Assembly (NCBI GenBank): GCA_005800405.1 | Contig: SYFN01000119.1 | Coordinates: forward strand, 1 to 18,204 | Direction of reading: 5' to 3' | Source: Burkholderiales bacterium | GTDB lineage: Bacteria > Pseudomonadota > Gammaproteobacteria > Burkholderiales > Burkholderiaceae_D | Length of the DNA stretch: 18,204 bases | Shown here: positions 1,228 through 17,850 of the stretch, piece by piece | How the letters are laid out: every line of letters starts with the position of its first letter | How positions within the stretch are numbered: the first letter of the stretch is position 1 | Notes under the pieces: generated by a model | Databases searched by the model: none | Seen by the model: only the letters and a program-made list of their open reading frames with translations | Told to the model about the DNA's origin: nothing | Made by a program: the position numbers and the translations under genes

Positions 1228-2004
1228 GTGAATCAGGAAGTCAAACCCGCATCACGCGTGGCTGTCGTGACCGGTGGCGCCATGGGTATCGGCGCGGAAG
1301 TGGTTGAGCGCCTCGCGCGTATCGGTCACCATGTAGTGATTGCCGATCGCGATGAAGCCGCCAGCGCCGCGATGGTCGCGCGATTGCAATCGCAACAGCT
1401 GTCTGTGATGGCCATTCCGATTGACGTGAGCGATTCTGTGCAAATCGCAACGGCTTTTGGTGTCATCTCAAACACGCTTGGTCGCTGCGATATTCTGGTC
1501 AATTGCGCGGGTGTCGCCAAAGTGTTTCCTTTCGTTGATTTCCCGCTCGAGGAATTCGAGCGCACGATGAACATCAATGTCACTGGTACCCTGCTCTGCA
1601 GCCAACACGCTGCTCGTCAGATGATGCACCATCAGTGGGGGCGAATCATCAATATCGCTTCGGTCGCCGGCATGCGCGCGGTAGGTACGGGCCGCACTGC
1701 CTATGGCACCTCCAAAGGTGCTGTCATTGCACTGACCCGACAAATGGCCGTCGAACTCGCAGAATATGGCATTACTGCGAATGCAGTGGCACCAGGCCCC
1801 GTGGATACACCGATGACGCAGCTGTTGCATACTGCGCAATTTCGCACCGAGTATTCGAAAGCCATTCCAATGAATCGCTACGGTACGGTGTCTGAGATTG
1901 GCGCTGCAGTACAATTTCTCGCCTCCGATGATGCTGCCTACATCACCGGTATTGCAATGCCAGTCGATGGCGGATTTTTATCCAGCGGTGCTCGCGGTCT
2001 TTAA
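1228..2004 (+). CDS. SDR-family NAD(P)-dependent oxidoreductase (acid sugar cluster)
   Basis: This is a classical short-chain dehydrogenase of 258 residues when started at GTG 1228. That start gives the usual short leader before the first strand (VAVVTGG) and has GGGGA 6 bases ahead. An in-frame ATG at 1177 is possible, but further upstream extension is not, since it would run through the divergent promoter region. The cofactor loop TGGAMGIG is at residues 15-22 and an acidic residue ends strand 2 (D40), which suggests NAD rather than NADP. NCAG is at 92-95. The catalytic set is N118, S145, Y159 and K163 (Y-G-T-S-K), followed by PGPVDTPM. The stop TAA is immediately followed by the ATG of the RuBisCO-like protein gene, so the two are co-transcribed and probably co-translated. 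By context it should oxidise the acid sugar (or its alcohol/lactone precursor) to the keto form used by the kinase and RLP. The precise substrate is inferred only. Confidence 0.9.
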   Translation: MNQEVKPASRVAVVTGGAMGIGAEVVERLARIGHHVVIADRDEAASAAMVARLQSQQLSVMAIPIDVSDSVQIATAFGVISNTLGRCDILVNCAGVAKVFPFVDFPLEEFERTMNINVTGTLLCSQHAARQMMHHQWGRIINIASVAGMRAVGTGRTAYGTSKGAVIALTRQMAVELAEYGITANAVAPGPVDTPMTQLLHTAQFRTEYSKAIPMNRYGTVSEIGAAVQFLASDDAAYITGIAMPVDGGFLSSGARGL

Positions 2005-3222
2005 ATGATGCATATCAGCACAGGCATGCGCATCGAAGCCGTCTACCACCTTGAAACGGCGGATGATCCAGAGAAGGTGGCTGCACTGATCGCAGGCGAA
2101 CAATCCTCGGGGACTTTCGTCGCCATTCCCGGTGAAGATGAAGCGCTAAAGACGCGCGCCGCCGCGCGATATGAAATCACTGTGCTGGATCAGCCGGGCA
2201 GCAGCGAGGCGAGACATTACGAGCTCAAACTGTCATGGCCGCTGGAGAATCTCGGGCCATCACTGCCCAATCTGATGGCTACTGTCGCCGGCAATCTGTA
2301 CGAACTCAAACCTGTGCGCTCGCTGCGGCTGATGGATATGACGTTACCGCCCTCATTTGAGCAGGCGTATCCTGGTCCGGCGTTTGGCATCGCGGGCACA
2401 CGCGCACTCACTGGCGCACAGCAAGGACCACTGATAGGTACGATCATCAAACCCTCGGTAGGACTCAGCCCGCAGGATACTGCGAATGTCGTAGCTCAGC
2501 TGTGCGAGGCTGGGGTTGACTTTATCAAAGATGATGAGCTTCAGGCAGATGGGCCAGCCTGCCCTTTTGATGAGCGCGTCACGCTGTCGATGGCCGTCAT
2601 CAACCGCCATGCCGAGCGGTCGGGTAAAAAGGTGATGTATGCATTCAATCTGACCGGCGAGCTCGATGAAATGAAACGCCGCCATGACCTGGTGCAGCAG
2701 CTTGGTGGCACCGCCGTGATGCTAAGTCTGAATTCTGTCGGTATGGCGGGCTTCAATGCCTTTCGCCGTCATGCGCAATTACCCATTCACGCGCATCGTA
2801 ACGGCTGGGGTTATGTACAAGCGGGCTGGTCTTACACGGCATGGCAAAAGCTGTGGCGCCTGGCTGGCGTGGATCACATGCACGTTAATGGTATTGCCAA
2901 CAAGTTTCAGGAAGACGATGACAGTGTGATCGCTTCGGCGCGCGCTTGCCTGACGCCGATGTTTGCTGGCAAACCCTGCACGATCATGCCAGTGTTCTCC
3001 TCGGGCCAGACCGTCAGGCAGGCAGCACCCACATGGGAGCGGATGCAATCGACTGATCTGATTTTTCTCGCCGGCGGTGGATTGTTCGCGCATCCCGGTG
3101 GGATTGCCGCGGGTGTGAGCGCCCTTCGGCAGTCCTGGTCAGCAGCCATCGCAGGGACACCGCTCGATGTCGCTGCGAAAACCCATCGCGAATTACGTGA
3201 AGCACTGGAAAAATTTGCATGA
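2005..3222 (+). CDS. RuBisCO-like protein (RLP), probably acid-sugar-phosphate decarboxylase/hydrolase (OiaX/OiaT-like)
   Basis: The 405-residue protein has the full large-subunit RuBisCO fold. Aligned by eye to spinach RbcL: GTIIKPSVGLSP (145-156) holds K149 (= K175) but has S151 where RuBisCO has K177. FIKDDE (173-178) keeps the carbamylated lysine K175 (= K201) and the metal ligands D177 and E178. HAHR (262-265) matches H292/H294/R295. Loop-6 lysine K300 (= K334) is present in NGIANKFQEDD, S332 matches S379, and GGG (357-359) and HPGG match the phosphate loop. The metal site is therefore intact, unlike enolase or DK-MTP-1P enolase types that lose several residues, but the site differs from CO2-fixing RuBisCO. 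RLPs next to DUF1537 kinases are known to work on 3-oxo-isoapionate 4-phosphate in D-apionate catabolism (OiaX decarboxylase, OiaT transcarboxylase/hydrolase). That is the best family guess here. ATG 2005 abuts the SDR stop. A start at 2026 (MRIEAVYHLE) is also possible. Confidence 0.9.
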   Translation: MMHISTGMRIEAVYHLETADDPEKVAALIAGEQSSGTFVAIPGEDEALKTRAAARYEITVLDQPGSSEARHYELKLSWPLENLGPSLPNLMATVAGNLYELKPVRSLRLMDMTLPPSFEQAYPGPAFGIAGTRALTGAQQGPLIGTIIKPSVGLSPQDTANVVAQLCEAGVDFIKDDELQADGPACPFDERVTLSMAVINRHAERSGKKVMYAFNLTGELDEMKRRHDLVQQLGGTAVMLSLNSVGMAGFNAFRRHAQLPIHAHRNGWGYVQAGWSYTAWQKLWRLAGVDHMHVNGIANKFQEDDDSVIASARACLTPMFAGKPCTIMPVFSSGQTVRQAAPTWERMQSTDLIFLAGGGLFAHPGGIAAGVSALRQSWSAAIAGTPLDVAAKTHRELREALEKFA

Positions 3223-3260
3223 GTGCTGTTGCGTTTTCGCGCGGATGAGGCCATAAGATC

Positions 3261-4631
3261 ATGAACGATGCGAACACGGCCTTGCAGGCCAAGGTCCTGT
3301 TTTATGGCGATGATTTTACCGGTGCTTCGGACAATGCTGCACAATATGCACGACACGGACTGAAGACGGTTTTATTCTTTTCCGATCCTGGTATGGATTT
3401 CCTCGAACAATCGGCCCGAAACTATGACGTACTGGGCGTTGCCGGTACGGCGCGGTCCCTTGATCCCGATGGTATGCGTGCCGAGCTGGTACCCGTACTC
3501 GAAAAATTTCGGCAGCTCGATATACCGTTGGTGCAGTACAAATGCTGCTCAACCTTTGACTCCTCCCCCGATACAGGCAGCCTCGGTCATGCAATGCAAC
3601 TGATGCAAGCCTGCTGGCCAGGTAGCCTGATACCTGTGTTGGCAGCCACGCCCGAGTTCGGCCGTTACACCATCTTCGGTCATCACTATGCACGCGCAGG
3701 CACAACCGTACATCGACTCGACCGTCATCCCGTGATGTCACGTCATCCGGTGACGCCGATGCACGAATCTGATTTATCTTTGGTGCTCGCTCAGCAAGGC
3801 TTTAACCCAGGCCATGCGGTCGATTTACGTCTGCTGGATCATTTTGAAGCAACACCCGACGTGCTGGCCAACGAGCTCATGGCGCACGACAGCGTGGTCT
3901 TCGATGGTTACACGTTAAAGCAAGTCATGACTGCTGCAGCGAGCTTGTGGCATGTGTCGCAACGACGTCAGGTGTGTGCGATGGCAGCACAGGGATTTGC
4001 CCACGGACTCGGTACATGGTTGCGCCTGTCCGGGCGACTGACCTCAAGCCCGCCCGCGCACAAACTTGCTGCGGTTGACCGACTGCTGGTGCTGTCAGGC
4101 AGTTGCTCGTCCTTGTCTGCGGATCAGATTGCTTGGGCACGGAGAGCCGGCTTTCTGACGATGCGTGCAGAGCGCAGCCTGCTGACCTGCGAAGATCCCG
4201 GCGCACTGGACTCGCTGGAGAAGCGCATGCTGGATGCATTGAAATCCGGTACTAGCGTGATTGTCTTCACCGCAGAGGGACCGGATGATGCGCAGCTGTC
4301 CACGGCATCGACTCAGCCTTTAAATGCGTTGGCGGTAGCACAGCGTATCGGCCATCTTTTCGCTAGACTGGCGCGAGTGGCATTTGAACGGGTTGGGCTA
4401 CAGAGGCTGGTCGTAGCCGGTGGTGACTCGTCCAGCTTTACGATGCGCGACATACTCGCGAGCGCACTTGAGATTAAAGCAAGTCACTTCGGACAAAACG
4501 CCCATGTCTGCACCTTGTTATCCGATGACCCGCTCATCAACAATAAGGAAGTACTGCTCAAAGGTGGACAGGTAGGTCAAGCGGATCTGTATGGTCTGAT
4601 GCTGAATGGCTTCAGCGATTCAAGCGCATAA
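3261..4631 (+). CDS. Four-carbon acid sugar kinase family protein (DUF1537; OiaK/OtnK-like)
   Basis: The protein has 456 residues, normal length for the family. The N-terminal sugar-binding domain starts with the signature VLFYGDDFTGASD (residues 12-24). The C-terminal nucleotide-binding domain carries VAGGDSSSFT (385-394) and LLKGGQVGQ (432-440), the usual G-G-D and K-G-G-x-x-G motifs. Members phosphorylate D-/L-threonate, D-erythronate, 3-oxo-tetronates or 3-oxo-isoapionate with ATP in the cytoplasm. With the RLP 38 bases upstream, it most likely makes the phosphorylated keto acid that the RLP consumes. The substrate is not determinable from motifs alone. Start ATG 3261 follows a weak GAGG element. 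The unit SDR-RLP-kinase ends here: no transporter, lactonase, aldolase or regulator gene accompanies it within the window. Confidence 0.92.
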   Translation: MNDANTALQAKVLFYGDDFTGASDNAAQYARHGLKTVLFFSDPGMDFLEQSARNYDVLGVAGTARSLDPDGMRAELVPVLEKFRQLDIPLVQYKCCSTFDSSPDTGSLGHAMQLMQACWPGSLIPVLAATPEFGRYTIFGHHYARAGTTVHRLDRHPVMSRHPVTPMHESDLSLVLAQQGFNPGHAVDLRLLDHFEATPDVLANELMAHDSVVFDGYTLKQVMTAAASLWHVSQRRQVCAMAAQGFAHGLGTWLRLSGRLTSSPPAHKLAAVDRLLVLSGSCSSLSADQIAWARRAGFLTMRAERSLLTCEDPGALDSLEKRMLDALKSGTSVIVFTAEGPDDAQLSTASTQPLNALAVAQRIGHLFARLARVAFERVGLQRLVVAGGDSSSFTMRDILASALEIKASHFGQNAHVCTLLSDDPLINNKEVLLKGGQVGQADLYGLMLNGFSDSSA

Positions 4632-6281: not shown

Positions 6282-7298
6282 TCAGGCGAGTACCCGTCTG
6301 GCGGCCTCCGTGTAGAAAGGGATACCAAACAGAATATTCAGCAGAAAAGTAACGCCAAGGGACAAGCCCAGATAAAGCGACGGATTGGCCTCGGGAATTG
6401 CGTAACGCAAGACCGCTGGCACCACGATGTACGAAGCGCTGGCCGAGAGCACCATGATGAGCGCAGCGTCGGCGACCGGCAAAGACAGCAGCACCGACAC
6501 CAGCAGTGCGATGCTAGCGTGCGCCACGGGGGCCAGTGCGGCATAAGCGATCAGTATCGGCGACTTGCCCTGCACATCACGCATGCTGCGCGCAACCATC
6601 AAGCCCATATCCAACAGAAAAAAAGCCAGCATGCCTTTGAAGAGATCGGTTGAAAACGTCTGCATCATGACTTTGCCCGCCTCGCCACTCAGGTAGCCAA
6701 TGAACAAAGAAGCCAGCAACAGCAGATGCGCCCCGCTGGTAAAAGACCCATGAATGACTTTGCCCATGGAGGGCGCGGAAAAACTGCCGCCCCCTGAACC
6801 CACCATGGCCCCAATGCCACTCTGGTTAGCGACCACCTGCGCGCTCGCCTGCTTTTGGCGAATCATGTTGGCAAGTAGCACCGCCATCAGAATCGCGGGC
6901 GACTCCATAAGGACCATCGCGACCGCCATGTGCCCACCGGGCGACATCTGCTGAGATTCGAGATACTGCATCGCCGTCACGAAGGTCACTGCACTAACCG
7001 AGCCGTAGGAGGCAGCGACGGCAGCGGCAACGAATCGCGCAACCCGATTTCTCAGAAACAGGTAGCCCAGCGCCGGTACAACGAAAGCCATCAGGATCGC
7101 GGCGAAAAGGCTGATCATCACCGAGGGATTCAGACCTGACGCCGCAAGGGCGAAGCCACCTTTCAGACCCAATGCCATCAGAAGGTAAAGAGACAGGAAT
7201 TTGGCCGTGGCGGCGGGCATCTCCAAATCAGAGCGGAACCAGCCAGCGATCACGCCAAATACAAAAAAAAGAATTGCCGGGTCGAGCAGATTTTGCAT
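6282..7298 (-). CDS. SbtA-family sodium-dependent bicarbonate transporter
   Basis: The 338-residue, very hydrophobic protein matches the SbtA (DUF897) family: LYLLMALGLKGGFALA (about 38-52), SYGSVSAVTFVTAMQYL, a LMESPAI motif, then a polar cytoplasmic loop rich in Gln, Ala, Gly and Ser (about 160-195), and a second five-helix half ending near the C-terminus. Two inverted five-helix repeats are the known fold. The family imports bicarbonate with sodium, best studied in cyanobacteria. The start at 7298 is chosen because AGAGG lies 4 bases upstream. An in-frame ATG at 7331 would overlap the operator. No gene for the PII-like partner SbtB is adjacent. It is divergent from a LysR gene, which is the usual arrangement for a transporter and its own regulator. 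Substrate is assigned by family only, since many proteobacterial members are untested. Confidence 0.88.
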   Translation of the reverse strand: MQNLLDPAILFFVFGVIAGWFRSDLEMPAATAKFLSLYLLMALGLKGGFALAASGLNPSVMISLFAAILMAFVVPALGYLFLRNRVARFVAAAVAASYGSVSAVTFVTAMQYLESQQMSPGGHMAVAMVLMESPAILMAVLLANMIRQKQASAQVVANQSGIGAMVGSGGGSFSAPSMGKVIHGSFTSGAHLLLLASLFIGYLSGEAGKVMMQTFSTDLFKGMLAFFLLDMGLMVARSMRDVQGKSPILIAYAALAPVAHASIALLVSVLLSLPVADAALIMVLSASASYIVVPAVLRYAIPEANPSLYLGLSLGVTFLLNILFGIPFYTEAARRVLA

Positions 7299-7318
7299 AC
7301 ATCCTCTTTTAGACAAGG

Positions 7319-7347
7319 ATGATAGATACATTAAACAATCGGGTAAA
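7319..7347 (-). promoter_or_regulatory. Candidate sigma-70 promoter of the sbtA-like gene
   Basis: Reading leftward, TTTACC (complement of 7342-7347) and TATCAT (complement of 7319-7324) are separated by 17 bases. They match 4/6 and 5/6 of the -35 and -10 consensus. The -35 lies inside the palindrome between the two genes, so a bound LysR protein would directly contact or occlude it. Position 20 bases upstream of the chosen start codon is suitable. Confidence 0.45.
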
Positions 7348-7367
7348 ATCGAATTTTACATTGTTTA
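7332..7367. promoter_or_regulatory. Two-step interrupted palindrome, likely LysR-type operator
   Basis: TAAACAAT (7332-7339) is mirrored by ATTGTTTA (7360-7367), and inside it GTAAAAT (7343-7349) is mirrored by ATTTTAC (7353-7359) around CGA. Both arms are perfect. The only asymmetry is three extra bases (CGG, 7340-7342) on the left. The 36-base element occupies the centre of the 85-base gap between the divergent transporter and LysR genes. LysR regulators bind dyads with T-x11-A character in such gaps, so this is the expected autoregulatory and activator site. Confidence 0.65.
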
Positions 7368-7383
7368 CCATAGATAAAAAGCA

Positions 7384-8280
7384 ATGAATATGACTTTCAG
7401 ACAGCTGCGACTGGTGCTGGCGCTGGCCGATACCGGCAGCGTCAGCGCAGCGGCGCGCGCGACCCATGTGACTCAACCCACTGCCTCAATGCAGTTGCGC
7501 GAGGCCGCAAACGCGGTGGGCATGCCTTTGTACGAAGTGATAGGCAAACGCGTGCATCTAACCGAAGCCGGGAAAGAGCTCGCCCGAACCGCGCGTGCGA
7601 TGTCGGCGGAGTGGGAAGCATTTGAACAAAAAATCGATGGCCTCAAAGGGCTGACGCGAGGCCGCCTGAAAGTAACCGTGGTCAGCACAGCGAAGTATTT
7701 CGTACCCCGTCTGCTGGGCGGCTTTTGCGCCAAATACCGCGCGATCGATATTTCACTCGAGGTTCTTAATCGCGATGGTGTCGTCAGTCGGCTCGCTGAT
7801 AATCTCGACGATCTCTACATCATGTCCATGCCACCTGGTACATTTGATCTCGAGGATCAGGTATTCATGCCCAATCCACTGGTCGTGATTGGACCCCGAA
7901 AAAAACGGTCTGCCAATCGAAGCACGATGGATTTACGCGCATTGGCGAGCAGTCGGTTTATCCTGCGCGAACCAGGTTCAGGCACTCGCATGGCAACCGA
8001 TGCCCATTTTCAAAGGCTGGGTTTCAACCCGGAAATGAAGCTGGAGCTGGGCAGCAATGAAGCGATTCGGGAAGCCGTGGCAGGTGGTCTGGGTGTTGCG
8101 GTGATTTCTCAGCATGCGCTACAAGGTCATGCATCAGGACTTGGCGTTTCGATATTGGATGTCAAGGGTTTTCCCCTGCAGTCGCAGTGGCATGTCGTGC
8201 ACCACAAGGGCAAGCAGTTGTCACCGATTGCGACAATCTTCCGCGATCATTTGCTCAAGAGCTCGACGCTGTGGCGCTAA
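7384..8280 (+). CDS. LysR-family transcriptional regulator (CbbR/CmpR-like)
   Basis: The 298-residue protein has normal LysR length. The N-terminal winged helix-turn-helix covers about residues 4-62 (FRQLRLVLALADTGSVSAAA, then THVTQPTASMQLREAANAVG and LTEAGKELA). A linker helix and a two-lobed effector domain follow (about 90-295). The stretch STAKYFVPRLLGGFCAKY and LEVLNRDGVVSRLADN resemble CbbR/CmpR regulators, which control carbon-fixation and inorganic-carbon transport genes. The divergent SbtA-like gene supports a role in controlling bicarbonate uptake. The regulator probably also represses itself through the palindrome 16-50 bases upstream of its start. A second ATG at 7390 is an alternative start. 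The effector is not evident from the sequence. Confidence 0.92.
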   Translation: MNMTFRQLRLVLALADTGSVSAAARATHVTQPTASMQLREAANAVGMPLYEVIGKRVHLTEAGKELARTARAMSAEWEAFEQKIDGLKGLTRGRLKVTVVSTAKYFVPRLLGGFCAKYRAIDISLEVLNRDGVVSRLADNLDDLYIMSMPPGTFDLEDQVFMPNPLVVIGPRKKRSANRSTMDLRALASSRFILREPGSGTRMATDAHFQRLGFNPEMKLELGSNEAIREAVAGGLGVAVISQHALQGHASGLGVSILDVKGFPLQSQWHVVHHKGKQLSPIATIFRDHLLKSSTLWR

Positions 8281-8520: not shown

Positions 8521-8831
8521 TAGGCAGCCACGAAAATAGGTGGGTAGCTGCGAAAACGCTGCTACCGCTAAAAAGTCTGAATATAGCAGCAGTCACCGAT
8601 TTTCTATCATTATTAAATTGATATTAAACTGAACTCGCGCCCCGGTCGTTGCAAACACTCGCCGCCAATTTTCAATTTAAAAACAAGTTACGCATCAAAG
8701 TTGGCGAACACCGAACATTGGGATATCGCGTATCCTTCTTTTTCCACCAAGGCGGCATGGTGCGCGCGACCGGCGCGAAGCCAGGACGCGGCCTCATTTT
8801 GCATGGCTGGACAAACTACAGAACGTCGATC
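8521..8831. promoter_or_regulatory. Divergent intergenic region with hairpin and AT-rich patch
   Basis: These 311 bases separate the leftward small membrane protein from the rightward caspase lipoprotein. At 8543-8566 there is a hairpin: GGTAGC-T-GCG, loop AAAA, CGC-T-GCTACC, with a 9-bp stem interrupted by one T/T mismatch. It would be transcribed in the leader of the leftward gene. An AT-rich stretch (about 8601-8630, with TATCAT and TTGATA boxes) is the most promoter-like part, but no well-spaced -35/-10 pair could be fixed. The lipoprotein frame stays open back to 8649, yet the translated leader has no features and the lipoprotein signal begins only at 8832. Confidence 0.35.
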
Positions 8832-11294
8832 ATGAACGCCGTCAATGTATCACCACGATTCGCGCCGTCTTTTTGCGCTCTGCTCGTGTCAATACTTGGA
8901 CTCGCCGCCTGTGGTGGTGATTACACGAATCAGGTAACTCAAATCACTGGCAAAACCCGTTATCTGAATCCGAACGCGGCCAGTACAAAAACCCAAGGGT
9001 TTGAATCAGCTTACATTGATCAGCGAGGCGTGCTGACCATCACATTGAAAGAAAAAATCAGCTCGCCGGAATTCGAAGCGCCGATTGTTCAACGTCGGGA
9101 AGTGACCGGTAAGCGTGCCAATCCGATTGGATCCACGCTGGCAGCCACATTCACGATTGGCTTGTATCCGTTGCTGGCACCGGGAAATTTTTTGAAAGAT
9201 ACCTTTGGTCACGAGACAGGAACCCAAGTTCTGAGTGAGGAGCCCGATCGCAATCGTGCCGTGGCGACTGGTCGCAGTGAATGGGTGACACTGCCACTGA
9301 ACGGTGCTCAAATCGAGATAACCGGGCTTAGGACCACTATCACTCGTGAAATCCAGCTCAATTCACAAGGCTCTGGCTCCATTGATGTCGGCAGCGAACT
9401 GTTCGATCGATACGTTGAAGCAGGAAACCTGAAACGTCTGTCGATTGTTTGTAAAAATTGTGTTGTCAACACGAGTGTTTCAGGTCTAGCCGCGCGAACA
9501 TCGCTGGAATTCACCCCTCCTGATAGCTGGCGGTTGCTGGCGGAATATCGCAAAAGTCCCGACCTTGTCTGGGTCGCCGACTCCGATTTGGTCGGCGCTC
9601 GGAGCCGAAGGGCTGCGAGCAACCGATCGCGTGCAGTCGCCTGGAAGGATATCACTGCCGCCGCACAAAAGCGTGGTGAAACTCAGATGCAGAGACTTGC
9701 AGAGCTGCCCGAAGCCTTGCGCCGCGAACGACGCGAAATAGAAGCCTCGAGGCCTCCACCAGAAGTAACGCTGACGCGCGATGAATTCGAATCGACAGCC
9801 GAATTCAACGAACGCGTACGAGCCACTCGGGCGAGTGAAGAGGCAAAACGGGCCGCGTACGATCGTCGCGTTGAAAACCTGAACCGCAAGTTGCGTGAGT
9901 TTCAGGACAATCTTCCAAAAACGCTGCCCCGCCCTCTGGTATTACAATCGATCAGTGAAAGTCTCTTTGAACTGGTCGGCGAACCCGAGGTGAAAAACGT
10001 CATCTATGACGCCGATCTTAAACGCTTCATCATCACGGTTGCTGGCTCTACGCAACCAGATCGTGCACCCATGACATTTACGATGGTGACGCAACACGAT
10101 ATTGACTCGGATCAGGGCAGACGACTCAAGCAGTTAATCAGTCGTGCCCGCCCTTTCCTGCGCATGGCAGCGAGCGACAAGCTTATACGTCCGGTATCTG
10201 GGCACTTGATGTTGAGCGATCAGGTGCTTGCCATGCAATTCGTCGACAATGTGGAAATATCCGCTTTGGATACTGTGAAGCCCGAGACAGGGCAGATGGC
10301 CAATCTACGGCCTCTGCGGAAAATTGAAAGCGGTGCCGTGGCGACACAATCACTGGTACTCGCCGATGATGTCGAGAGCCGCAAGCTGCGCGAGCGACTA
10401 GAAGAACTGCGTGATGATGTGCGGCAGCGTCAACAAGTCAGCGCTGAGAAAGAACGACTTAACGAAGAAATTCGTCAGCTTGAAGCTCGCCTTAAAACCA
10501 TGGACCAGGGTGAATTCAATGATGACCTTGCCGAGGTGATCGCAAAAATTTTACCCGTGCGCGCTATTGGAAATACCTTTGCCGTGGTGATTGGTATTGC
10601 CGACTATGAGGAGCTGCCACGTGTGACGTTCGCGGATCGCTCTGCCAAAAATTTCGCTGATCTGATCCGCAGACAATTTGGCATTCCACCCGAACACATG
10701 GTCAGCCTGATCAATGATGAGGCGACCGGCGTGCGCATGATGACACGCCTGCGTACCGTGGTCGGTCGCCTGACCCACAAGGACAGGCTGATGGTGTACT
10801 ACTCTGGTCATGCGGCGCCGACGCGCGACGGCAAGCACACTGTGCTAATCCGCCAGGATGCCTCGGACGGTCATCTGGATGATCCTGCTTTCAGACTTAA
10901 CGAGTTCTACCAAATTCTGCTTCGAAGTAATGCACAACAAATCGTCGTGGTACTGGACACCTGTTTCTCGGGTCGCTCTGAGGGTAACAAGCTGATTTAC
11001 AACGATGTCGCACCCGTGATCCCGGTGTCGCGCGACGGCGCAACACCGCCAAACGACTCGCGGCTTACCGTGCTCGCAGCGGCTGGACCCTCCGATTTTG
11101 CCAACGGTCTGCGCGGGCGAGGTCATCGGTTATTCTCTTATCATTTGCTGCATGAGATGGCCAAAACCGGCAGTCTGGTTCCGGACCGTTTTAATGTGGT
11201 GAGCGAAGCGGTACAGCGCGATGCCATCGCACTGGGACCGGATTATCGTCAGAAACCTTTGTGGCTGGGCAAAATAAAAACGGTGAAACCATGA
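8832..11294 (+). CDS. Lipoprotein with C-terminal caspase-family (peptidase C14) domain
   Basis: The start at ATG 8832 gives an 820-residue protein with a lipoprotein signal: hydrophobic 14-24, lipobox LAAC with lipidated C27, and Gly at +2, which suggests outer-membrane sorting. After a beta-rich N-terminal region there is a charged helical segment (about 290-360, with TRDEFESTAEFNERV), a folded middle part, and a predicted coiled coil (about 513-557). The caspase/p20 domain begins at FAVVIGIADYEELP (583). Its catalytic dyad is His660 in YYSGHAA and Cys711 in VLDTCFSGR. Both are intact, so a cysteine protease (metacaspase/orthocaspase-like, probably Arg/Lys-directed by family) acting in the periplasm is expected. 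Such lipid-anchored forms are poorly characterised. The last codons overlap the next gene by ATGA, implying translational coupling to an SDR. I found no partner substrate or toxin gene next to it. Confidence 0.88.
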   Translation: MNAVNVSPRFAPSFCALLVSILGLAACGGDYTNQVTQITGKTRYLNPNAASTKTQGFESAYIDQRGVLTITLKEKISSPEFEAPIVQRREVTGKRANPIGSTLAATFTIGLYPLLAPGNFLKDTFGHETGTQVLSEEPDRNRAVATGRSEWVTLPLNGAQIEITGLRTTITREIQLNSQGSGSIDVGSELFDRYVEAGNLKRLSIVCKNCVVNTSVSGLAARTSLEFTPPDSWRLLAEYRKSPDLVWVADSDLVGARSRRAASNRSRAVAWKDITAAAQKRGETQMQRLAELPEALRRERREIEASRPPPEVTLTRDEFESTAEFNERVRATRASEEAKRAAYDRRVENLNRKLREFQDNLPKTLPRPLVLQSISESLFELVGEPEVKNVIYDADLKRFIITVAGSTQPDRAPMTFTMVTQHDIDSDQGRRLKQLISRARPFLRMAASDKLIRPVSGHLMLSDQVLAMQFVDNVEISALDTVKPETGQMANLRPLRKIESGAVATQSLVLADDVESRKLRERLEELRDDVRQRQQVSAEKERLNEEIRQLEARLKTMDQGEFNDDLAEVIAKILPVRAIGNTFAVVIGIADYEELPRVTFADRSAKNFADLIRRQFGIPPEHMVSLINDEATGVRMMTRLRTVVGRLTHKDRLMVYYSGHAAPTRDGKHTVLIRQDASDGHLDDPAFRLNEFYQILLRSNAQQIVVVLDTCFSGRSEGNKLIYNDVAPVIPVSRDGATPPNDSRLTVLAAAGPSDFANGLRGRGHRLFSYHLLHEMAKTGSLVPDRFNVVSEAVQRDAIALGPDYRQKPLWLGKIKTVKP

Positions 11295-12052
11295 TCAATC
11301 AACTGAACCTTCAGCAGCGTCATGCTGTCGTTACGGGTGCCGCATCCGGCCTTGGCTTCGCCATAGCCAATCGCCTCCTCACCTCGGGTGCCCGACTAAC
11401 CCTCTGGGATCGGGACCCGACAGGCCTGCAGCAAGCGGTACATCATCTGCAAGCCAGCGCAGCGGGCAGCGTGATCAATGCTTTCACAGTTGATGTGGCT
11501 TCGCATGCTTCCGTGGCTGATGCAGCGCGCAGCACGCAAGCGATCGCCCCCGTCGACATTCTGGTCAACTCCGCCGGTATCAGCGGACCCAATGCCAAGC
11601 TCTGGGAGTACCCGACCGATGCCTGGGAGCAGATCATTGACATCAATCTCAATGGCACCTTCCTCTGCTGCCGCGAATTGGTACCCGGTATGCGAGAGCG
11701 CAATTATGGCCGCATCGTGAACATCGCCTCGGTCGCGGGCAAAGAGGGCAACCCGAATGCCAGCGCCTACAGTGCAAGCAAGGCTGCCGTGATTGGCCTG
11801 ACCAAATCGCTGGGCAAAGAACTTGCCGATACCAGCATCTGCGTGAACTGCGTTACCCCAGCCGCCGTGAAGACCGCCATTCTGGACCAGAATTCTGCGG
11901 AGCACATTGCCTACATGCTCAGCAAAATACCGATGGGACGTTTTGGGACACCCGAAGAAATCGCCGCGATGGTGGCTTGGCTTTGTACCGAGGAATGCTC
12001 ATTTACGACGGGTGCCGTGTTTGATCTGAGTGGCGGGCGCGCGACCTATTGA
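11291..12052 (+). CDS. SDR-family NAD(P)-dependent oxidoreductase
   Basis: The gene encodes 253 residues from ATG 11291, which overlaps the caspase gene stop as ATGA. An upstream in-frame start at 11261 is rejected because 11291 gives the usual length and a GGTGA element stands ahead. Motifs: TGAASGLG (15-22), D40 closing strand 2 (NAD preference), NSAG (93-96), catalytic N119, S147, Y160, K164 (Y-S-A-S-K), and the C-terminal dimer segment GAVFDLSGGRATY. The overall sequence resembles sugar-acid and 3-oxoacyl-ACP reductase-type SDRs. The SGGRATY ending is one I associate with 2-keto-3-deoxy-L-rhamnonate/fuconate dehydrogenases, but this is weak evidence. Coupling to a lipoprotein protease is unexpected for a cytoplasmic dehydrogenase. 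It differs from the first SDR in this window and is not a recent copy. Confidence 0.9.
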   Translation: MINQLNLQQRHAVVTGAASGLGFAIANRLLTSGARLTLWDRDPTGLQQAVHHLQASAAGSVINAFTVDVASHASVADAARSTQAIAPVDILVNSAGISGPNAKLWEYPTDAWEQIIDINLNGTFLCCRELVPGMRERNYGRIVNIASVAGKEGNPNASAYSASKAAVIGLTKSLGKELADTSICVNCVTPAAVKTAILDQNSAEHIAYMLSKIPMGRFGTPEEIAAMVAWLCTEECSFTTGAVFDLSGGRATY

Positions 12053-12104: not shown

Positions 12105-15100
12105 TTACTCCGCTTTACGCAAAACGGTTTGGCTGAATCGCCGCCATAGATCTTGGGCGTCATCGACGAAGGTATAAACGGCAGGTACCACCAGGAGTGA
12201 TAACAGGGTGGAGGTAATCAAGCCACCGATGACCGTGACAGCCATAGGTGAGCGGAAACTTGGGTCTGCTCCGAAGCCTAGCGCTAAAGGCATCATGCCC
12301 GCCCCCATCGCAATCGTAGTCATCAGAATCGGGCGGCTCCGCTTGTGACAAGCGTCTACCAGTGCGTCGAACCTCGACATGCCTGCATGGCGGGCCAGAA
12401 TCACATAATCAACCAGCAGAATGGAGTTCTTGGTCACGATACCCATCAGCATAATCAATCCAATCATGGATGGCATCGACAATGCCTTGTGAGTGACCAG
12501 CAGACCAACAAAAGCACCGCCTATCGACAGCGGCAGCGCTGCAAGAATTGTGATCGGCTGCATGAAGTCGTGGAACAGCAGTACCAGCACCCCATAGATG
12601 CAGAGCACCCCAATCAGCATGGCGATGCCGAAGCTCTCAAACAGCGCCTGCATTTCTTGCGCATCACCCAGCTCGGCAATCGTGACTGAGGGCGGCAGGT
12701 TTTTCATGCTGGGCAGTGCACGCGCTTCTTCATTCAACTCACCCAGCGAACGACTGCCCAACTCCACCTCCAGGGTGACATTACGGCTGCGGTTCAGCCT
12801 GTCGATTTGCGCCGGGCCGCTGTCCATGCTCACACTGGCGACCGTGCCCAGCATCACCGGACCCTGGCGTCCCGGTACCGATAAGCGCTCGATCGCTGCC
12901 AGATCAGCGCGCACATCATTGGGTAACTTCACGCGAATCGGTACCTGACGTTCTGACAAATTCAACCTCGGCAGGTTGACGTCATAGTCACCGGCGGTAG
13001 CAACGCGTACCGTCTCAGCAATACCCGCCGTGGTCACACCAAGGTCTGCCGCGCGCGCGGCATCAGGTCGAACGATGATCTCAGGTCGGACCAGCGATGC
13101 GCTTGAGTTGACATTGCCAATACCATTTATCGTTCGCAACTCGCGCTCGACTAGACGCGCCGCCGTCGCAAGCGCAAACGGATCATCACTTTTCAAAACG
13201 AGCTGCATCTTGACGCCGGTATCCGGCGGGCCAACGGTGAAGCGTGCACCTGGAATTTCATCCAGTCTGGTGCGTAACTGATTCTCCAGATCCTGCAATG
13301 ACTCAGCGCGCTCATCACGATGGATCACGTTCAGTGTCAGCACAGCGCGTCGCGCTTCAGCGGCGGCGCCCGGCACAAATGCGTCGCCACTGGAACCACC
13401 ACCGATCGAGCTGAAGATACGCTGGACGCCGTTGACTTTCATCGCGGTGAGTCTTGCCTGTTCGGCCGTAGCAGTAGTCTCTGCCAAGGTACTGCCCGGC
13501 GGCAGCTCGACCGTGATCTGCGTTTGTCCGCGGTCGGCCGGCGGTATGAAGCCTGTCGGTAGCAAGGGCACCAGCGACAATGAAGCCACAAAAAACGCCG
13601 CAGAGGCAATCGCCGTCACCCAGCGGTAGCGCAGACACCAGCGCATCACGCCGAGGTAGCTGCGCATCAGCCGGCCATCTTTCGGCGCCACATGCTTCGC
13701 CGGCTTGAGCAAATAGGCCGACATCATCGGCGTAAGTAAGCGCGCCACCACCAATGATGAGAACACTGCGACTGCGGCAGTCCAGCCAAACTGTTTGAAG
13801 AACAAACCAGGCACACCAACCATGAAGGCGGTTGGTAGAAACACTGCGACCAAGGTAAACGTGGTTGCAATCACCGCCATGCCAATCTCATCCGCCGCCT
13901 CGAGTGCAGCTTTCATGGGTGTCTTCCCCATTTGCAGGTGTCGCGCAATGTTCTCAATCTCGACAATTGCATCATCCACCAGCACACCGACCACCAGTGC
14001 TAATGAAAGCAGGGTCACGGTATTGATGGTGTACCCGAACCATGACATGGCCAGAAAGGTCGGGATCACCGAAAGTGGCAAAGCTGATGCCGCCACCAAA
14101 GTCGCACGCCAATCACGCAAAAACCAGAGCACCACCAGCACCGCCAACAGCGCGCCTTCGTACAGCAGAATCATCGAGCCTTGGTAGTTCTCTTCGACCG
14201 GTTGTGCGTTATCGATCACCTCCGTAATCCGCAGATGAGGGTTTTCTGCCTGCAGCCCATTCACCACCTCGCGAACGCCTTGTGCCACCATCAATTCACC
14301 ATAGCCCTTGGTGCGCGACACTTCGAAACCAACCACCAATGTGCCATCCTGAGTGGCGATGGCGCGTGGCTCGGCGACGGTATCGTCAACAGTCGCGATT
14401 TGATCCAGTCTTACGCGCCTGCCATCGTCGAGCGAGATTTCAATGAGCTCTAATTCAGCTGCTGTCTTGACGGTGGCAATAGTACGAACTGACTGCTCTG
14501 CGCCAGAGACATCGCCACGACCACCCGGGGCCTCTTGCTGCACCTGACGCAGCCTGCGGGAAACATCGATGGCGGTGACACGCAGCGCGTTCATGCGCTC
14601 CGTATCCAGCTCGATACGAACTTCACGCGAGACGCCACCAATGCGCTTGATGGCACCGACGCCTTTGACGGCAAGCAAGCGTTTGGTGACATTGTTATCA
14701 ATGAACCATGAGACCTCTTGTAAGTCGGGCGCACTGCCAGAGGTATTGGGAACGGCGGACACACTGAAGGTCAAAATCGGCCGGCCGGCAGTAGAGACTT
14801 TGGTCACGGAGGGATCACGCACGTCAGCCGGCAGATCGGCGCGCACCCGCGCTACCGCATCGCGTACATCGTTTACCGCATCCGAGAGATTTTTTTCAAG
14901 GACAAACTCAACCGTGACAGTCACTTGTCCATCAAGCACCTTGGTATAAATATTTTTGATACCCTGCAAACTGGCGACCGAGCCTTCGATCTTGCGCGCC
15001 ACCTCGGTCTCGAGCTGGGCCGGTGCAGCACCCGGCAACGAAGCCACTACGTTCACGATGGGCAGTTCGATATCGGGAAGATCCTGAATCGCATTCGAGC

Positions 15101-15188
15101 GAAATGCGAGCAGTCCAGCCAGCGTCAGCAGCGCGAACAACAAGATCGCGGGTACTGGATTGCGAATCGAGAGCGCGGAAAAATTCAC
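12105..15188 (-). CDS. RND multidrug efflux permease (HAE-1/AcrB-like)
   Basis: The 1027-residue inner-membrane pump subunit has normal length for the AcrB/MexB family. TM1 starts at residue 12, followed by LPDIELPIVNVVASLPGAAPAQLETEV and the porter domain. The TM4 proton-relay pair D405/D406 sits in VGVLVDDAIVEIENI, and the partner lysine K920 is in TM10 (MGIVTKNSILLVDYV), so proton coupling should be functional. The second half repeats the architecture after about residue 530. It starts with GTG at 15188, which overlaps the adaptor stop as GTGA. It is the third gene of a leftward operon (outer-membrane channel, adaptor, permease). The set suggests drug, solvent or other toxic-compound export. 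The HAE-1 features exclude the heavy-metal (CusA) subfamily. Confidence 0.95.
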   Translation of the reverse strand: MNFSALSIRNPVPAILLFALLTLAGLLAFRSNAIQDLPDIELPIVNVVASLPGAAPAQLETEVARKIEGSVASLQGIKNIYTKVLDGQVTVTVEFVLEKNLSDAVNDVRDAVARVRADLPADVRDPSVTKVSTAGRPILTFSVSAVPNTSGSAPDLQEVSWFIDNNVTKRLLAVKGVGAIKRIGGVSREVRIELDTERMNALRVTAIDVSRRLRQVQQEAPGGRGDVSGAEQSVRTIATVKTAAELELIEISLDDGRRVRLDQIATVDDTVAEPRAIATQDGTLVVGFEVSRTKGYGELMVAQGVREVVNGLQAENPHLRITEVIDNAQPVEENYQGSMILLYEGALLAVLVVLWFLRDWRATLVAASALPLSVIPTFLAMSWFGYTINTVTLLSLALVVGVLVDDAIVEIENIARHLQMGKTPMKAALEAADEIGMAVIATTFTLVAVFLPTAFMVGVPGLFFKQFGWTAAVAVFSSLVVARLLTPMMSAYLLKPAKHVAPKDGRLMRSYLGVMRWCLRYRWVTAIASAAFFVASLSLVPLLPTGFIPPADRGQTQITVELPPGSTLAETTATAEQARLTAMKVNGVQRIFSSIGGGSSGDAFVPGAAAEARRAVLTLNVIHRDERAESLQDLENQLRTRLDEIPGARFTVGPPDTGVKMQLVLKSDDPFALATAARLVERELRTINGIGNVNSSASLVRPEIIVRPDAARAADLGVTTAGIAETVRVATAGDYDVNLPRLNLSERQVPIRVKLPNDVRADLAAIERLSVPGRQGPVMLGTVASVSMDSGPAQIDRLNRSRNVTLEVELGSRSLGELNEEARALPSMKNLPPSVTIAELGDAQEMQALFESFGIAMLIGVLCIYGVLVLLFHDFMQPITILAALPLSIGGAFVGLLVTHKALSMPSMIGLIMLMGIVTKNSILLVDYVILARHAGMSRFDALVDACHKRSRPILMTTIAMGAGMMPLALGFGADPSFRSPMAVTVIGGLITSTLLSLLVVPAVYTFVDDAQDLWRRFSQTVLRKAE

Positions 15189-16381
15189 TGCGCGTCCTTT
15201 GTCTCGCGCTTGTTGTCACGATCAACCGCGTTACCACGAATCATGCGCACCAGATCACCATCATTCAAGAAACCAGCACCGGCCACCACAATCTCGTCTT
15301 GCAGCGAAATACCTTCGGTAATCTCGACATAGTCCTGCAGGTACCGCCCGGTCTTGACCTTCAGTTGCGCCACGCGCCCGTCAGACTTCATCTGAAATAC
15401 ATAGCTAAAGCCATCTCGCACAACCACCGCCTGTTGCGGCAGCGTGACACCGTTGCCACTACCAAGCATGAATTCGCCGCGCGCAAACATACCTGGTTTG
15501 GCTGGTGCTTCGCCCGAGGCAACGGGAAGCAGATCAACGAACACCAGCGCTGAACGATTTTGCGGATTGACGGTGGGCCCGATCATTCGCACCTTGCCGT
15601 TCAAGCGTGTTCCATTCGCTGCGACTAGCGTGACGCCAGAGCCAATGCGTATGCGCGATAGCTCGCTCGCCATTACCTCAGCGCGCCACTCCAGCCTGCC
15701 CTTGCGAATCATTCGAAATAGCTCGGTACCGTTCGCGACAACTGCACCCACGGTCGCGCTGCGTGCAGAGATCACACCGCTGTCCGGCGCGCGTAGTTGT
15801 GTGAACTTCAGCCGCAGCCTTTGTGCACTGACTGCTGCCTCAGCCGCTGCGACACGCGCACGCGCGGTTTGCTCTCCGGCGAGAAATTGATTGATCTGCT
15901 GGGTGCTGATTGCACCGGTGTTCACCAAGGATCGCGCACGCTCGGCATTTGAGCTGGCCTCGGCGAGTGTGGCTTGGGCCTCCAGCAAAGCGGCATTGGC
16001 CTGAGCAAGATCGGCTCGCACGGTCTCGTCGGAGAAACGAGCGAGGGTTTGACCGACACGCACAAGGTCACCGACATTCACCAACACCTCGGTCAAGCGC
16101 AGCCCATTTGCCTCGCTGCCAATACTCGCCTCCTGCCAGGCGGCGATATCGCCGTTGGCAACCAGTGTCTGCGAGAGACGGGTTAGCTGTGGGCGCGCCG
16201 TGTTGACAGTCAATGCGGCCTTCGCAGTTGATGGCGGCTTGGTGCTGGTCGCCTTGTCGTTCGCCTTGCTGCCAGGGGTGAGCGAAAGCCAGGCGGCGAG
16301 CATCATCAGCCTCGCTACGCTTGCGATTGCCGAACGCGGGGGTCGACGCGGGAAGTGTCGGATCGGGTGCAAGGTCATCAT
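15185..16381 (-). CDS. RND efflux periplasmic adaptor (membrane fusion protein)
   Basis: The 398-residue protein has an N-terminal signal/anchor (hydrophobic about 19-36), with no lipobox cysteine, unlike AcrA or MexA. The adaptor domains follow in order: first half-lipoyl strand ending in VGDLVRVGQTLARF (about 102-115), an Ala/Glu-rich alpha hairpin (DLAQANAALLEAQATLAEASSNAERARSL ... RVAAAEAAVSAQRLRL), second half-lipoyl LRAPDSGVISARSATVGAVVANGTELFRM, beta-barrel, and membrane-proximal domain. The ATG at 16381 overlaps the stop of the channel gene (ATGA) and its own stop overlaps the permease start. It bridges permease and outer-membrane channel. A second ATG directly follows the first. Confidence 0.93.
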   Translation of the reverse strand: MMTLHPIRHFPRRPPRSAIASVARLMMLAAWLSLTPGSKANDKATSTKPPSTAKAALTVNTARPQLTRLSQTLVANGDIAAWQEASIGSEANGLRLTEVLVNVGDLVRVGQTLARFSDETVRADLAQANAALLEAQATLAEASSNAERARSLVNTGAISTQQINQFLAGEQTARARVAAAEAAVSAQRLRLKFTQLRAPDSGVISARSATVGAVVANGTELFRMIRKGRLEWRAEVMASELSRIRIGSGVTLVAANGTRLNGKVRMIGPTVNPQNRSALVFVDLLPVASGEAPAKPGMFARGEFMLGSGNGVTLPQQAVVVRDGFSYVFQMKSDGRVAQLKVKTGRYLQDYVEITEGISLQDEIVVAGAGFLNDGDLVRMIRGNAVDRDNKRETKDAQ

Positions 16382-17850
16382 GGTTTCGACTGTGCGCGAG
16401 TTTTATCGGATGATGTTGGCGACTGCCAGCCGCCGCCACCGGCGCGGTACAAGGCGATCCATGCTGCGATGCGCTCACGCTGCAGGCTCACCAGTGCGGT
16501 CTCTGCTCCAAGTTTGCTGCGACGCGCCTCCTCCAGCTCGATTAGGCTACCAAAACCTTTTTTGTAGCGTAGCTGGGCGGCATCGAGCGAGGCCATGAAG
16601 CCGTCGATCGCAATCTGCGCGTCGTCACTGCGCGCCGCAATGCTATCGAGATTAACCAAACTCTCTTCGACTTCACGCACCGCGCGGCGTACGGTGGCGC
16701 GGTATAAATTTGCAGCGGCTTCATAACGCGCCACCGCTGCCGCCGTAGTGGCGCGTCGCCGATTACCATCAAAGATAGGCAGGCTCAGGGCCACAGGACC
16801 CACCGTCCAACTGTTCAGATTGAATGCGCCATCGCTGGTCTCAAATCGATTACGACCTATGGTTCCGGCTAGCGAGAGTCGCGGGTAGCGTCGCGCTTCG
16901 ACGCTACCGACATCGTTGCTGGCGGCGGCGACCTCCTGCGCGGCTGCGTAAATGTCAGGACGTTGTGCCAGCGTTGCCGCGGGTAGCTCTGCGAGGGGTA
17001 CCGGCGTCGGGAGCGGCAGGGTCGCGGGCACGCTGTCGAGCTTGGCGCGCAGATCGCGCTCATCAAGACCGGTCAGCATGACGAGCGCTTTGACATCCAC
17101 GTCGCACTTCGCTCGCAACGCGGTGACTCGGCTGCGTCCCTCTGCTGCACTGGCCCGCGTCAGCGCTGAATTTGCCGGAGGCTGAAATCCCGCTCTAACC
17201 GCCAGCTCAGTTAGGCGCGTAATCTCGGCACGCGAGGCTGCATCAGCCTCTGCAACTGTCAGCAAACGCCTACAGCCCCTCAAGGCATAGTACTGATTGG
17301 CAGTCTCGGCTGCCACTGATACGCGCGCCTCGTGCCAGTTGGCCTCGGCACCTTGTGCACGGAGCTGCGCCGCGTCGCGCGCCAATCGATTTACGCCAAA
17401 CAGGTCAATCTCCCAACTGGCCTGCAACGAGCCCTGGAAAACATTACCACCGGGGAAAGGCGGAAACGCGCTGCGGCGCTGTGCACTGACGCCAGCATCC
17501 AGGGTAGGCTGCAGTGCGCCACCTGCAGCCAATCGCTCTGCATTCGCCTGTTCGATCCTCGAGCGGGCGACACTGACACTAGCACTCTCGTTTTGCGCTG
17601 CGCCGATCAGATCGATCAGCAGCGGGTCTTGCTGCCGCCGCCACCAATCCGCCAGCGCCGACACTTGCCCACCATGGGCCAAAGCGCCCTCACCGGGCAT
17701 GGGCGCGATCCATTGTGCGGGAAGAGTCAGATCAGGCTTGGCCGTTAGTAGTAGCGCACTGATATGGCCGCAGCCGCTCAGTTGCATGCACAGCAGCAGG
17801 GGTAACACGGCCAAGTACCGAGCGTGGCTATGGTCGGGTAGTAAAGACAT
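16378..17850 (-). CDS. RND efflux outer-membrane lipoprotein channel (NodT/OprM family)
   Basis: The 490-residue protein has a lipoprotein signal (LLLCMQLSGC, lipidated Cys at 27) and the two repeated OEP domains of TolC-like channels: Ala-rich coiled helices such as SVSVARSRIEQANAERLAAGG and GAEANWHEARVSVAAETANQYYAL, and VGPVALSLPIFDGNRRRATTAAAVARYEAAANLYRATVRRAVREVEESL near the end. It forms the trimeric exit duct of the pump. It is the first gene of the operon, which is a less common order than adaptor-permease-channel. No strong ribosome binding site precedes the ATG at 17850. Instead a perfect palindrome covers the start codon. Confidence 0.93.
   Translation of the reverse strand: MSLLPDHSHARYLAVLPLLLCMQLSGCGHISALLLTAKPDLTLPAQWIAPMPGEGALAHGGQVSALADWWRRQQDPLLIDLIGAAQNESASVSVARSRIEQANAERLAAGGALQPTLDAGVSAQRRSAFPPFPGGNVFQGSLQASWEIDLFGVNRLARDAAQLRAQGAEANWHEARVSVAAETANQYYALRGCRRLLTVAEADAASRAEITRLTELAVRAGFQPPANSALTRASAAEGRSRVTALRAKCDVDVKALVMLTGLDERDLRAKLDSVPATLPLPTPVPLAELPAATLAQRPDIYAAAQEVAAASNDVGSVEARRYPRLSLAGTIGRNRFETSDGAFNLNSWTVGPVALSLPIFDGNRRRATTAAAVARYEAAANLYRATVRRAVREVEESLVNLDSIAARSDDAQIAIDGFMASLDAAQLRYKKGFGSLIELEEARRSKLGAETALVSLQRERIAAWIALYRAGGGGWQSPTSSDKTRAQSKP

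Follow-up and report, generated by a model that had tools for sequence, protein, structure and literature searches.

The 18,204-nucleotide stretch of DNA analysed here (the window), from an uncultured beta-proteobacterium, carries three genes in tight succession on its forward strand. The first (1228..2004, start GTG, stop TAA) codes for a classical short-chain dehydrogenase/reductase (SDR) of 258 amino acids (Pfam adh_short_C2, 9e-64), and its GTG start is backed by the close relatives L032, L150 and L153, all three of which share this first residue. The second, which abuts the first with a gap of 0 bases, codes for a RuBisCO-like protein (RLP) of 405 amino acids (2005..3222, ATG, TGA; Pfam RuBisCO_large, 1.5e-62, and RuBisCO_large_N). 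After a gap of 38 bases there follows a gene for a DUF1537 kinase of the four-carbon acid-sugar kinase family, with 456 amino acids (3261..4631, ATG, TAA; Pfam SBD_N, 1.9e-45, and NBD_C). These coordinates, gaps and domains agree with an earlier note on this DNA, which had described a compact SDR/RLP/DUF1537 kinase operon.

The window and 12 genomes whose RLPs are 74-92% identical together form what we call the window clade (n = 13). The SDR gene lies directly 5′ of the RLP gene in 12 of the 13 genomes, the exception being G664, where it sits on a different contig; the kinase gene is found 3′ of the RLP gene in 12 genomes, and the contig of the 13th stops before that point. Given that this order is kept across the window clade, we do not attribute the arrangement to chance. 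Among 21 genomes of the genus, the RLP and the SDR occur together in the same nine and neither is present in the other 12 (E-value limits of 1e-60 and 1e-70, respectively). Across 392 genomes of the family, the SDR (at least 62% identity) is found in 13, 12 of which also carry an RLP, and RLPs are present in 38; in G666 the SDR is present and the RLP is absent. The earlier note had remarked on the lack of a transporter. TRAP-transporter genes, which are typical of carboxylate uptake, are located 3′ of the RLP gene inside the operon in three of the 13 window-clade genomes. TRAP genes are found at L037, L154, L157, L166, L206 and L211.

In a tree built from 77 chosen RLP rows (L029, a mistranslated RuBisCO row, L218 and L164 were left out), the window RLP falls inside a 44-row clade (support 100/99) with proteins named OiaT (3-oxo-isoapionate-4-phosphate transcarboxylase/hydrolase), where the names are those of JGI, given to seven of 120 listed relatives of an Ancylobacter RLP, and the characterised Xanthobacter protein is absent from the tree. 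The oiaX rows form a separate clade. An earlier tree of 122 rows, L029 included, likewise places the window RLP among OiaT-named proteins. Within the OiaT clade it belongs to an 18-row subclade (100/98), and PF16896, the family of the oxidoisomerase ApnO, is near none of the 18 loci. The metal-site motif K-x-D-D-E (K175, D177 and E178) and the other compared active-site positions are present, so the metal site is intact, as had been proposed. At 21 of 21 compared positions (RuBisCO numbering), the window RLP carries the residue that is the consensus among 49 ApnO-linked relatives, in a table that contained row L029 and with an alignment that is uncertain at 379; one or two of the 49 rows deviate at three positions.

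Several other identities were rejected for this protein. The model for OiaX (3-oxo-isoapionate-4-phosphate decarboxylase; NCBIfam NF042437) gives 419 bits against a cut-off of 700, and oiaX lies in another clade. MtnW (DK-MTP-1-P enolase; TIGR03332) gives 133.5 bits against 513.6, and carboxylating RuBisCO (NF003252) gives 226.5 bits against 438, with F at 66, I at 173 and S at 177. The earlier note named membership of the MtnW or another characterised clade as grounds for refutation. The protein nests with OiaT-named proteins rather than in unassigned territory, which in part counts against the note's reading. Because it does so, and shares their active-site residues, its core chemistry is probably of a known kind, with the entry step alone being different.

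The closest known system is the branch of D-apionate catabolism that uses OiaK and OiaT (Carter et al. 2018, via PMC6302742, in an excerpt of which the OiaT substrate is branched). Both have an RLP of the OiaT clade, with active-site residues in common, as well as a DUF1537 kinase and an RLP-kinase gene pair, but the window has an SDR instead of ApnO and lacks a lactonase. The OiaX branch, as in the Rhizobium plasmid locus L170, also pairs an RLP with a DUF1537 kinase. However, its RLP is only 42-44% identical to that of the window, belongs to another clade and has different active-site residues, and L170 carries triose-phosphate-isomerase and RpiB genes plus PF16896. The best solved relative of the window RLP is 3nwr, and clusters of the 3nwr type (TRAP, a 179-amino-acid glyoxalase-family protein, RLP, kinase) share the RLP, the DUF1537 kinase and TRAP genes and have no ApnO in the loci seen. 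They differ in having no SDR, in the glyoxalase-family gene 5′ of the RLP gene, and in an RLP about 45-50% identical.

Searches with PF16896 and a model for ApnL gave no match in the window genome (G000, 71% complete) or in seven of the eight same-genus carriers. The operon thus matches its earlier description as one for an acid sugar that lacks both lactonase and oxidoisomerase, and the SDR is, as was also proposed, the sole oxidising enzyme seen with the RLP/kinase core in these genomes. Among the 15 SDR-bearing genomes, PF16896 is absent from 13 (from nine of the 11 that are at least 90% complete), and both positive genomes carry a further RLP with ApnO adjoining. Four further clade genomes (L033-L036) also lack PF16896. 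The pattern is less strong for a second SDR subfamily: of seven genomes carrying it, PF16896 is absent from four (L040, L043, L059 and L067) and present in three (L038, L089 and L091). Homologues of the GlcD family, which are common genes, occur in all 15 SDR genomes, with every match below the curated cut-off and with partial or weaker matches alone in G000, G592 and G641. A query for an RpiB-type isomerase, run without a positive control, gave no match in the 15 genomes.

The SDR and ApnO share a locus in 0 of 86 loci, although a tree-aware test of their exclusion is not significant, with three independent pairs and few independent events. This near-exclusion, the common role of the two enzymes in their clusters, and the presence of one or the other front end on closely related cores could indicate that the SDR stands in for ApnO, converting D-apionate to 3-oxo-isoapionate by an oxidation coupled to carbon rearrangement. 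We consider this highly improbable. G548 retains both an SDR-type and an ApnO-type cluster, as does G638. ApnL matches occur in just three of the 15 SDR genomes, one adjoining the ApnO cluster of G548 and two among other sugar-acid genes, and we know of no SDR that performs such a carbon shift. In G118 and G224, the ApnL-like genes were rejected as a sign of apionate use, given that their neighbours, judged by inspection rather than by a family search, resemble a dehydratase and aldolases.

The SDR alignment contains the S-Y-K catalytic residues and an acidic residue following strand 2, from which we infer a preference for NAD. A protein search with the SDR returned only generic names among the 120 matches listed. 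SDRs as a family are highly diverse. The subfamily of the window also lies beside RLP/kinase cores whose RLPs belong to two other clades, and the SDR-type core of L211 and the ApnO-type core of L209 have RLPs that are 80% identical and kinases that are 75% identical. Given that ApnO is missing and that SDR and ApnO front ends are swapped on related cores, the SDR is proposed to be the C3 dehydrogenase of the acid sugar. Its direct product would most likely be the 3-oxo acid, with isoapionate or the corresponding C6 compound, D-hamamelonate (2-carboxy-D-arabinitol), as the starting material.

The kinase is the component that departs most from this analogy in its tree position and sequence. The model for OiaK (3-oxo-isoapionate kinase; NCBIfam NF042436) gives 312 bits, below its cut-off of 700, which is evidently strict because the L170 kinase beside oiaX is likewise unnamed by NCBI. 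The window kinase is just 33-40% identical to 67 OiaT-clade kinases, is altered at 25 of 98 conserved positions, and lies on a long branch outside the kinases of OiaT clusters; positions 27, 142 and 175 are altered in the window clade. The kinase tree does not track the RLP tree, and for this reason the window clade may act on another substrate than the clusters that served as the analogy; we lean towards an acid not used by the apionate clusters. It seems unlikely that this acid is a linear one of four carbons (L-threonate or D-/L-erythronate). Here the SDR would yield 3-oxo-tetronate for phosphorylation, and the RLP would decarboxylate the product in place of OtnC, as might be read from a weak match of the kinase to the 3-oxo-tetronate kinase model (119 bits, cut-off 350). 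The OiaK score is far above this, and the RLP is in the OiaT clade, whose substrate is branched according to the excerpt of PMC6302742.

The gene order and its conservation, the RLP clade, the residues, the absence of ApnO and the exchange of front ends were computed directly. Building on these, we judge the chances about even that the three genes serve the catabolism of a branched acid sugar, which the SDR oxidises, the kinase phosphorylates and the OiaT-type RLP splits, an order of steps that fits the one suggested before. The substrate would be a 2-C-hydroxymethyl aldonate, with carboxyl, hydroxyl and hydroxymethyl groups all on C2 from the start. Oxidation of its C3 hydroxyl by the SDR with NAD would directly give a 3-oxo acid of the type obtained from D-apionate through ApnO in other bacteria. 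The far end of this acid would be phosphorylated by the kinase, as its family suggests. Judging by its clade and residues, the RLP would then use its lysine and metal site to shift or remove the carboxyl group via an enediolate and split the product. OiaT yields 3-phosphoglycerate and glycolate, and these are most likely the products here as well. Either isoapionate (C5) or D-hamamelonate (C6) probably serves as the entry compound. Weighing against this reading are the two genomes with both cluster types (G548 and G638), the SDR of G666 that has no RLP partner, the separate course of the kinase tree and the diversity of SDRs.

The six-carbon option corresponds to a known pathway that the earlier note did not mention and that may cover the window operon. 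Tentatively, the operon could be the lower half of the D-hamamelose pathway, with the SDR as D-hamamelonate dehydrogenase, the kinase forming the C5 phosphate and the RLP, perhaps acting as an oxygenase, giving 3-phosphoglycerate and glycolate. For Ochrobactrum anthropi, this pathway is cited from Kim et al. 2018, whose title, as given in PMC10176493 and PMC10173188, names the discovery of an RLP with oxygenase function in D-hamamelose catabolism, and an excerpt of PMC8914248 ties the O. anthropi rlp to hamamelose genes and to the products 3-phosphoglycerate and glycolate. The two systems would thus share an RLP in the catabolism of a 2-C-hydroxymethyl sugar. The divergence of the kinase is consistent with this, as is the occurrence of 2-carboxy-D-arabinitol in plant leaves (excerpt of PMC9833046). 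Against it, neither an aldose dehydrogenase nor a lactonase gene was seen in the operon neighbourhood, no gene for the free sugar adjoins the operon, and the RLP active site is the same as in apionate-linked relatives. If true, the operon would be a shorter, acid-importing form of this pathway.

We consider it doubtful that the operon serves growth on 2-carboxy-D-arabinitol, with the RLP cleaving by a Rubisco-like hydration or oxygenation. Oxidation at C3 and phosphorylation at C5 would leave the RLP holding Rubisco's six-carbon reaction intermediate minus one phosphate. 2-Carboxy-D-arabinitol is the backbone of the night-time Rubisco inhibitor of plants, and such an entry compound would link the breakdown of a leaf Rubisco regulator to a bacterial relative of Rubisco.

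Returning to the module for a branched acid sugar, what appears to be new is a different entry enzyme, the SDR, on an RLP/kinase core already known from apionate catabolism. The partner genes met with this core include ApnO, two classical SDR subfamilies, an extended SDR, a hydroxyisobutyrate-dehydrogenase-like gene and a glyoxalase-family gene. The RLP/DUF1537 core known from apionate catabolism thus looks portable, a module that combines with varying partners, and the vague annotation ‘RuBisCO-like protein’ gives way to a few substrates that can be tested.

The window is the whole of contig C79, from a 2.16-Mb genome in 284 contigs. On its plus strand lie genes for a short-chain dehydrogenase (SDR; 1228-2004, GTG start, TAA stop), a RuBisCO-like protein (RLP; 2005-3222, ATG start, TGA stop) and a DUF1537-family acid-sugar kinase (3261-4631, ATG start, TAA stop). 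The tight packing claimed for these three genes is borne out, with 0 bases separating the SDR and RLP genes and 38 bases separating the RLP and kinase genes. The RLP is the sole PF00016 match found in this genome, which is 71% complete. We conclude that the operon is real and conserved, and that it represents the apionate-type RLP module in a variant form, with a different first enzyme and a divergent kinase.

A protein search, limited to 8000 scored candidates, listed at least 120 relatives with 82-97% identity. The six best listed among named genomes are assigned to Oxalobacteraceae (two), Burkholderiales, Comamonadaceae, Betaproteobacteria and Limnohabitans, and fresh water is suggested by labels like pond and Baikal. 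When 392 genomes of the family were scanned, RLPs of the window clade (74-92% identical by tblastn) were present in nine of 21 same-genus genomes. A separate scan located the SDR in those same nine and did not find it in the other 12, which lack a window-clade RLP. Gene orders were established by using a codon-usage ORF caller written for this analysis and HMMs built from the loci. Among the 13 genomes of the window clade (the window and loci L032-L037, L150, L151, L153, L154, L156 and L157), the SDR gene is directly 5' of the RLP gene in all except L156 (genome G664), where it resides on a separate contig. The kinase gene is located 3' of the RLP gene in 12 of the 13; the L154 contig stops before that point. 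TRAP transporter genes follow the RLP gene in L037, L154 and L157; in the two of these loci whose contigs continue, L037 and L157, they sit between RLP and kinase.

Several neighbouring genes deserve mention. The contig begins within a 43-residue protein tail (1-132) that has no Pfam match and resembles the end of an IS30-type transposase. Upstream of the operon, on the minus strand, is a 265-aa FGE-sulfatase-domain protein (186-983), and the operon is bordered by relatives of this protein in L032 and L037 as well. At 6282-8280, a gene of the Na-dependent bicarbonate transporter family (Sbt_1, PF05982) diverges from one for a LysR regulator, for which CbbR is the top NCBIfam model (205 bits, cut-off 450); no RuBisCO was found in the genome carrying this pair, which likewise lies after the operon in L032, L150, L151 and L153 (90-93% identical). 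The stretch 8649-12052 holds an ORF of 881 aa that has a caspase-like domain (PF00656) and overlaps a second SDR gene (11261-12052), one not closely related to the operon SDR, and an RND-type efflux set (AcrB-family pump, HlyD-type fusion protein and outer-membrane protein) occupies 12105-17850 on the minus strand.

The best NCBIfam model for the RLP is OiaX, the decarboxylase, at 419 bits against a cut-off of 700, and its best solved relative is PDB 3nwr. Plasmid proteins named oiaX by NCBI (six among 30 matches listed) are 42-44% identical to it, and an Ancylobacter RLP (L044) is 61% identical. The JGI name 3-oxoisoapionate-4-phosphate transcarboxylase/hydrolase (OiaT) is attached to seven among 120 listed relative clusters of this Ancylobacter protein. 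The earlier note had suggested placing the RLP in a tree with OiaX and OiaT. In a tree of 77 chosen rows, three oiaX-type rows stand apart from it (support 100/100), and its clade is not an unassigned one: the 44 rows include two OiaT-named proteins (support 100/99). At 21 RuBisCO active-site positions (spinach numbering), the 13 window-clade rows are invariant and match the consensus of 49 relatives linked to PF16896 genes, which itself has exceptions in one or two rows at three positions. At 60 (D), 123 (G) and 327 (Q), among other positions, the OiaX rows, three in all, depart from this consensus, as they probably do at 379, where the alignment is uncertain.

Within this clade, an 18-row subclade (support 100/98) holds the window RLP, and none of its 18 loci carries PF16896 near the RLP. 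Among the 11 window-clade rows, 10 have the SDR adjoining the RLP. All seven sister rows have TRAP genes; six of them carry an extended SDR, assigned by clustering and Pfam in L039 and L040 and by 71-75% identity to that SDR in the others, and L043 carries a second classical SDR subfamily. The extended SDR (PF01370 family; L039:9003-9965, also L040 and L268-L272; 71-75% identical between loci) stands where the SDR would otherwise be, accompanied by TRAP genes and a kinase. A PF16896 gene, which we take from its context to be D-apionate oxidoisomerase (ApnO), adjoins the RLP in all 20 loci (L129-L148) of the 61-65% identity group of the family scan; its family was assigned by Pfam on three representatives. 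The oiaX locus L170 likewise has a PF16896 gene, and triose-phosphate isomerase, RpiB-type isomerase and Gfo/Idh oxidoreductase genes are annotated there too. PMC11747546 describes a strain able to grow on apiose, with an apiose cluster that comprises lactonase, apiose dehydrogenase, oxidoisomerase, kinase and decarboxylase.

The two front ends were not found together in any one of 86 loci whose flanks each reach 4 kb or more: 48 carry ApnO without the SDR, 10 the SDR without ApnO, none both and 28 neither (five of these with the second SDR subfamily). This exclusion yields a Fisher p of 1.3e-4 if kinship is ignored, and is not significant over the only three independent pairs. PF16896 is absent genome-wide from 13 of 15 SDR-bearing genomes (nine of the 11 with a completeness of 90% or more) and likewise from those of L033-L036; the exceptions, G548 and G638, each carry another RLP with PF16896 adjoining. 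Of the 392 family genomes, 13 encode an SDR with 62% identity or more and 38 encode an RLP, and G666 is the sole SDR carrier of the 13 without an RLP.

A 78-row SDR tree, which gave long-branch warnings for some outer rows, places the RLP-linked SDRs in a single 18-row group (SH-aLRT 94) that includes the G666 protein. Its sister comprises SDRs from loci lacking an RLP, and both of those viewed more widely (L222, L223) contain TRAP genes. The group takes in clusters of two other RLP clades (L166, L206, L211, L213 and L219); the gene order in L166 and L206 is RLP-kinase-DctP-DctQM-SDR, and in L219 the SDR is ~11 kb from the RLP. Because the cores of L211 (with the SDR) and L209 (with ApnO), from one RLP clade, are so alike (RLP 80%, kinase 75% identical), there is good circumstantial evidence that both front ends would feed one intermediate in that clade.

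The window kinase is 33-40% identical to 67 OiaT-clade kinases, for a mean RLP identity of 62%; among 150 random OiaT-clade locus pairs, the 59 with RLP identities of 62-66% have kinases 43-59% identical. Its long branch falls outside all kinases in the tree except the outgroup of five from 3nwr-type clusters, and some rows are of unusual composition. ApnO-type kinases (46 compared) share 98 conserved positions, of which the window kinase has changed 25 and kept 73, the latter including G16, D17, D18, T20, G21, K94, C96, S97, T98, D100 and S101. Either the kinase has been replaced, or else its acid differs.

Other arrangements were also encountered. In the 3nwr clade, L215:3683-9783 and loci L167, L168, L214, L216, L276-L282 and L287 carry consecutive genes for a TRAP transporter, a glyoxalase-family protein of 179 aa, the RLP and, in most of them, DUF1537 kinase; no dehydrogenase was recognised beside them. 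A 3-hydroxyisobutyrate/threonate-dehydrogenase-like gene (L103:9116-9988), which stops 3 bases 5' of an RLP-kinase pair, is possibly another front end. On Cupriavidus pinatubonensis plasmid p2 (L174, 5276-15230), an SDR annotated as glucose 1-dehydrogenase, an alpha/beta hydrolase, RLP, kinase, TRAP genes, a NanR-type regulator and a PF16896-type gene adjoin otnK and otnC, and this stretch may constitute a complete pathway that starts with a free branched sugar.

In the literature searched, which includes few subscription papers, no SDR-RLP-DUF1537 operon was found described. Kim et al. 2018, as cited in PMC8914248, reported an RLP that belongs to a D-hamamelose pathway, and the citing passage names 3-phosphoglycerate and glycolate in ambiguous wording. 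Hamamelonate is 2-carboxy-D-arabinitol; for the phosphates, the identity is taken from a title in the references of PMC9833046. For the module described here, the simplest route is one wherein the SDR would oxidize an acid sugar to a 3-oxo acid, the kinase would phosphorylate this product, and the RLP would convert the phosphate to 3-phosphoglycerate and glycolate. We judge this mechanism to be moderately likely. GlcD-family homologues are present in all 15 SDR carriers, all below the curated cut-off and only as partial or weaker matches in G000 (the window's own genome), G592 and G641; such genes are common, and thus they favour the pathway only weakly. Given that we know of no enzyme of the operon that shifts carbon, the branch of the acid sugar should already be on C2, which therefore leaves isoapionate or its six-carbon homologue hamamelonate as the putative entry acid.
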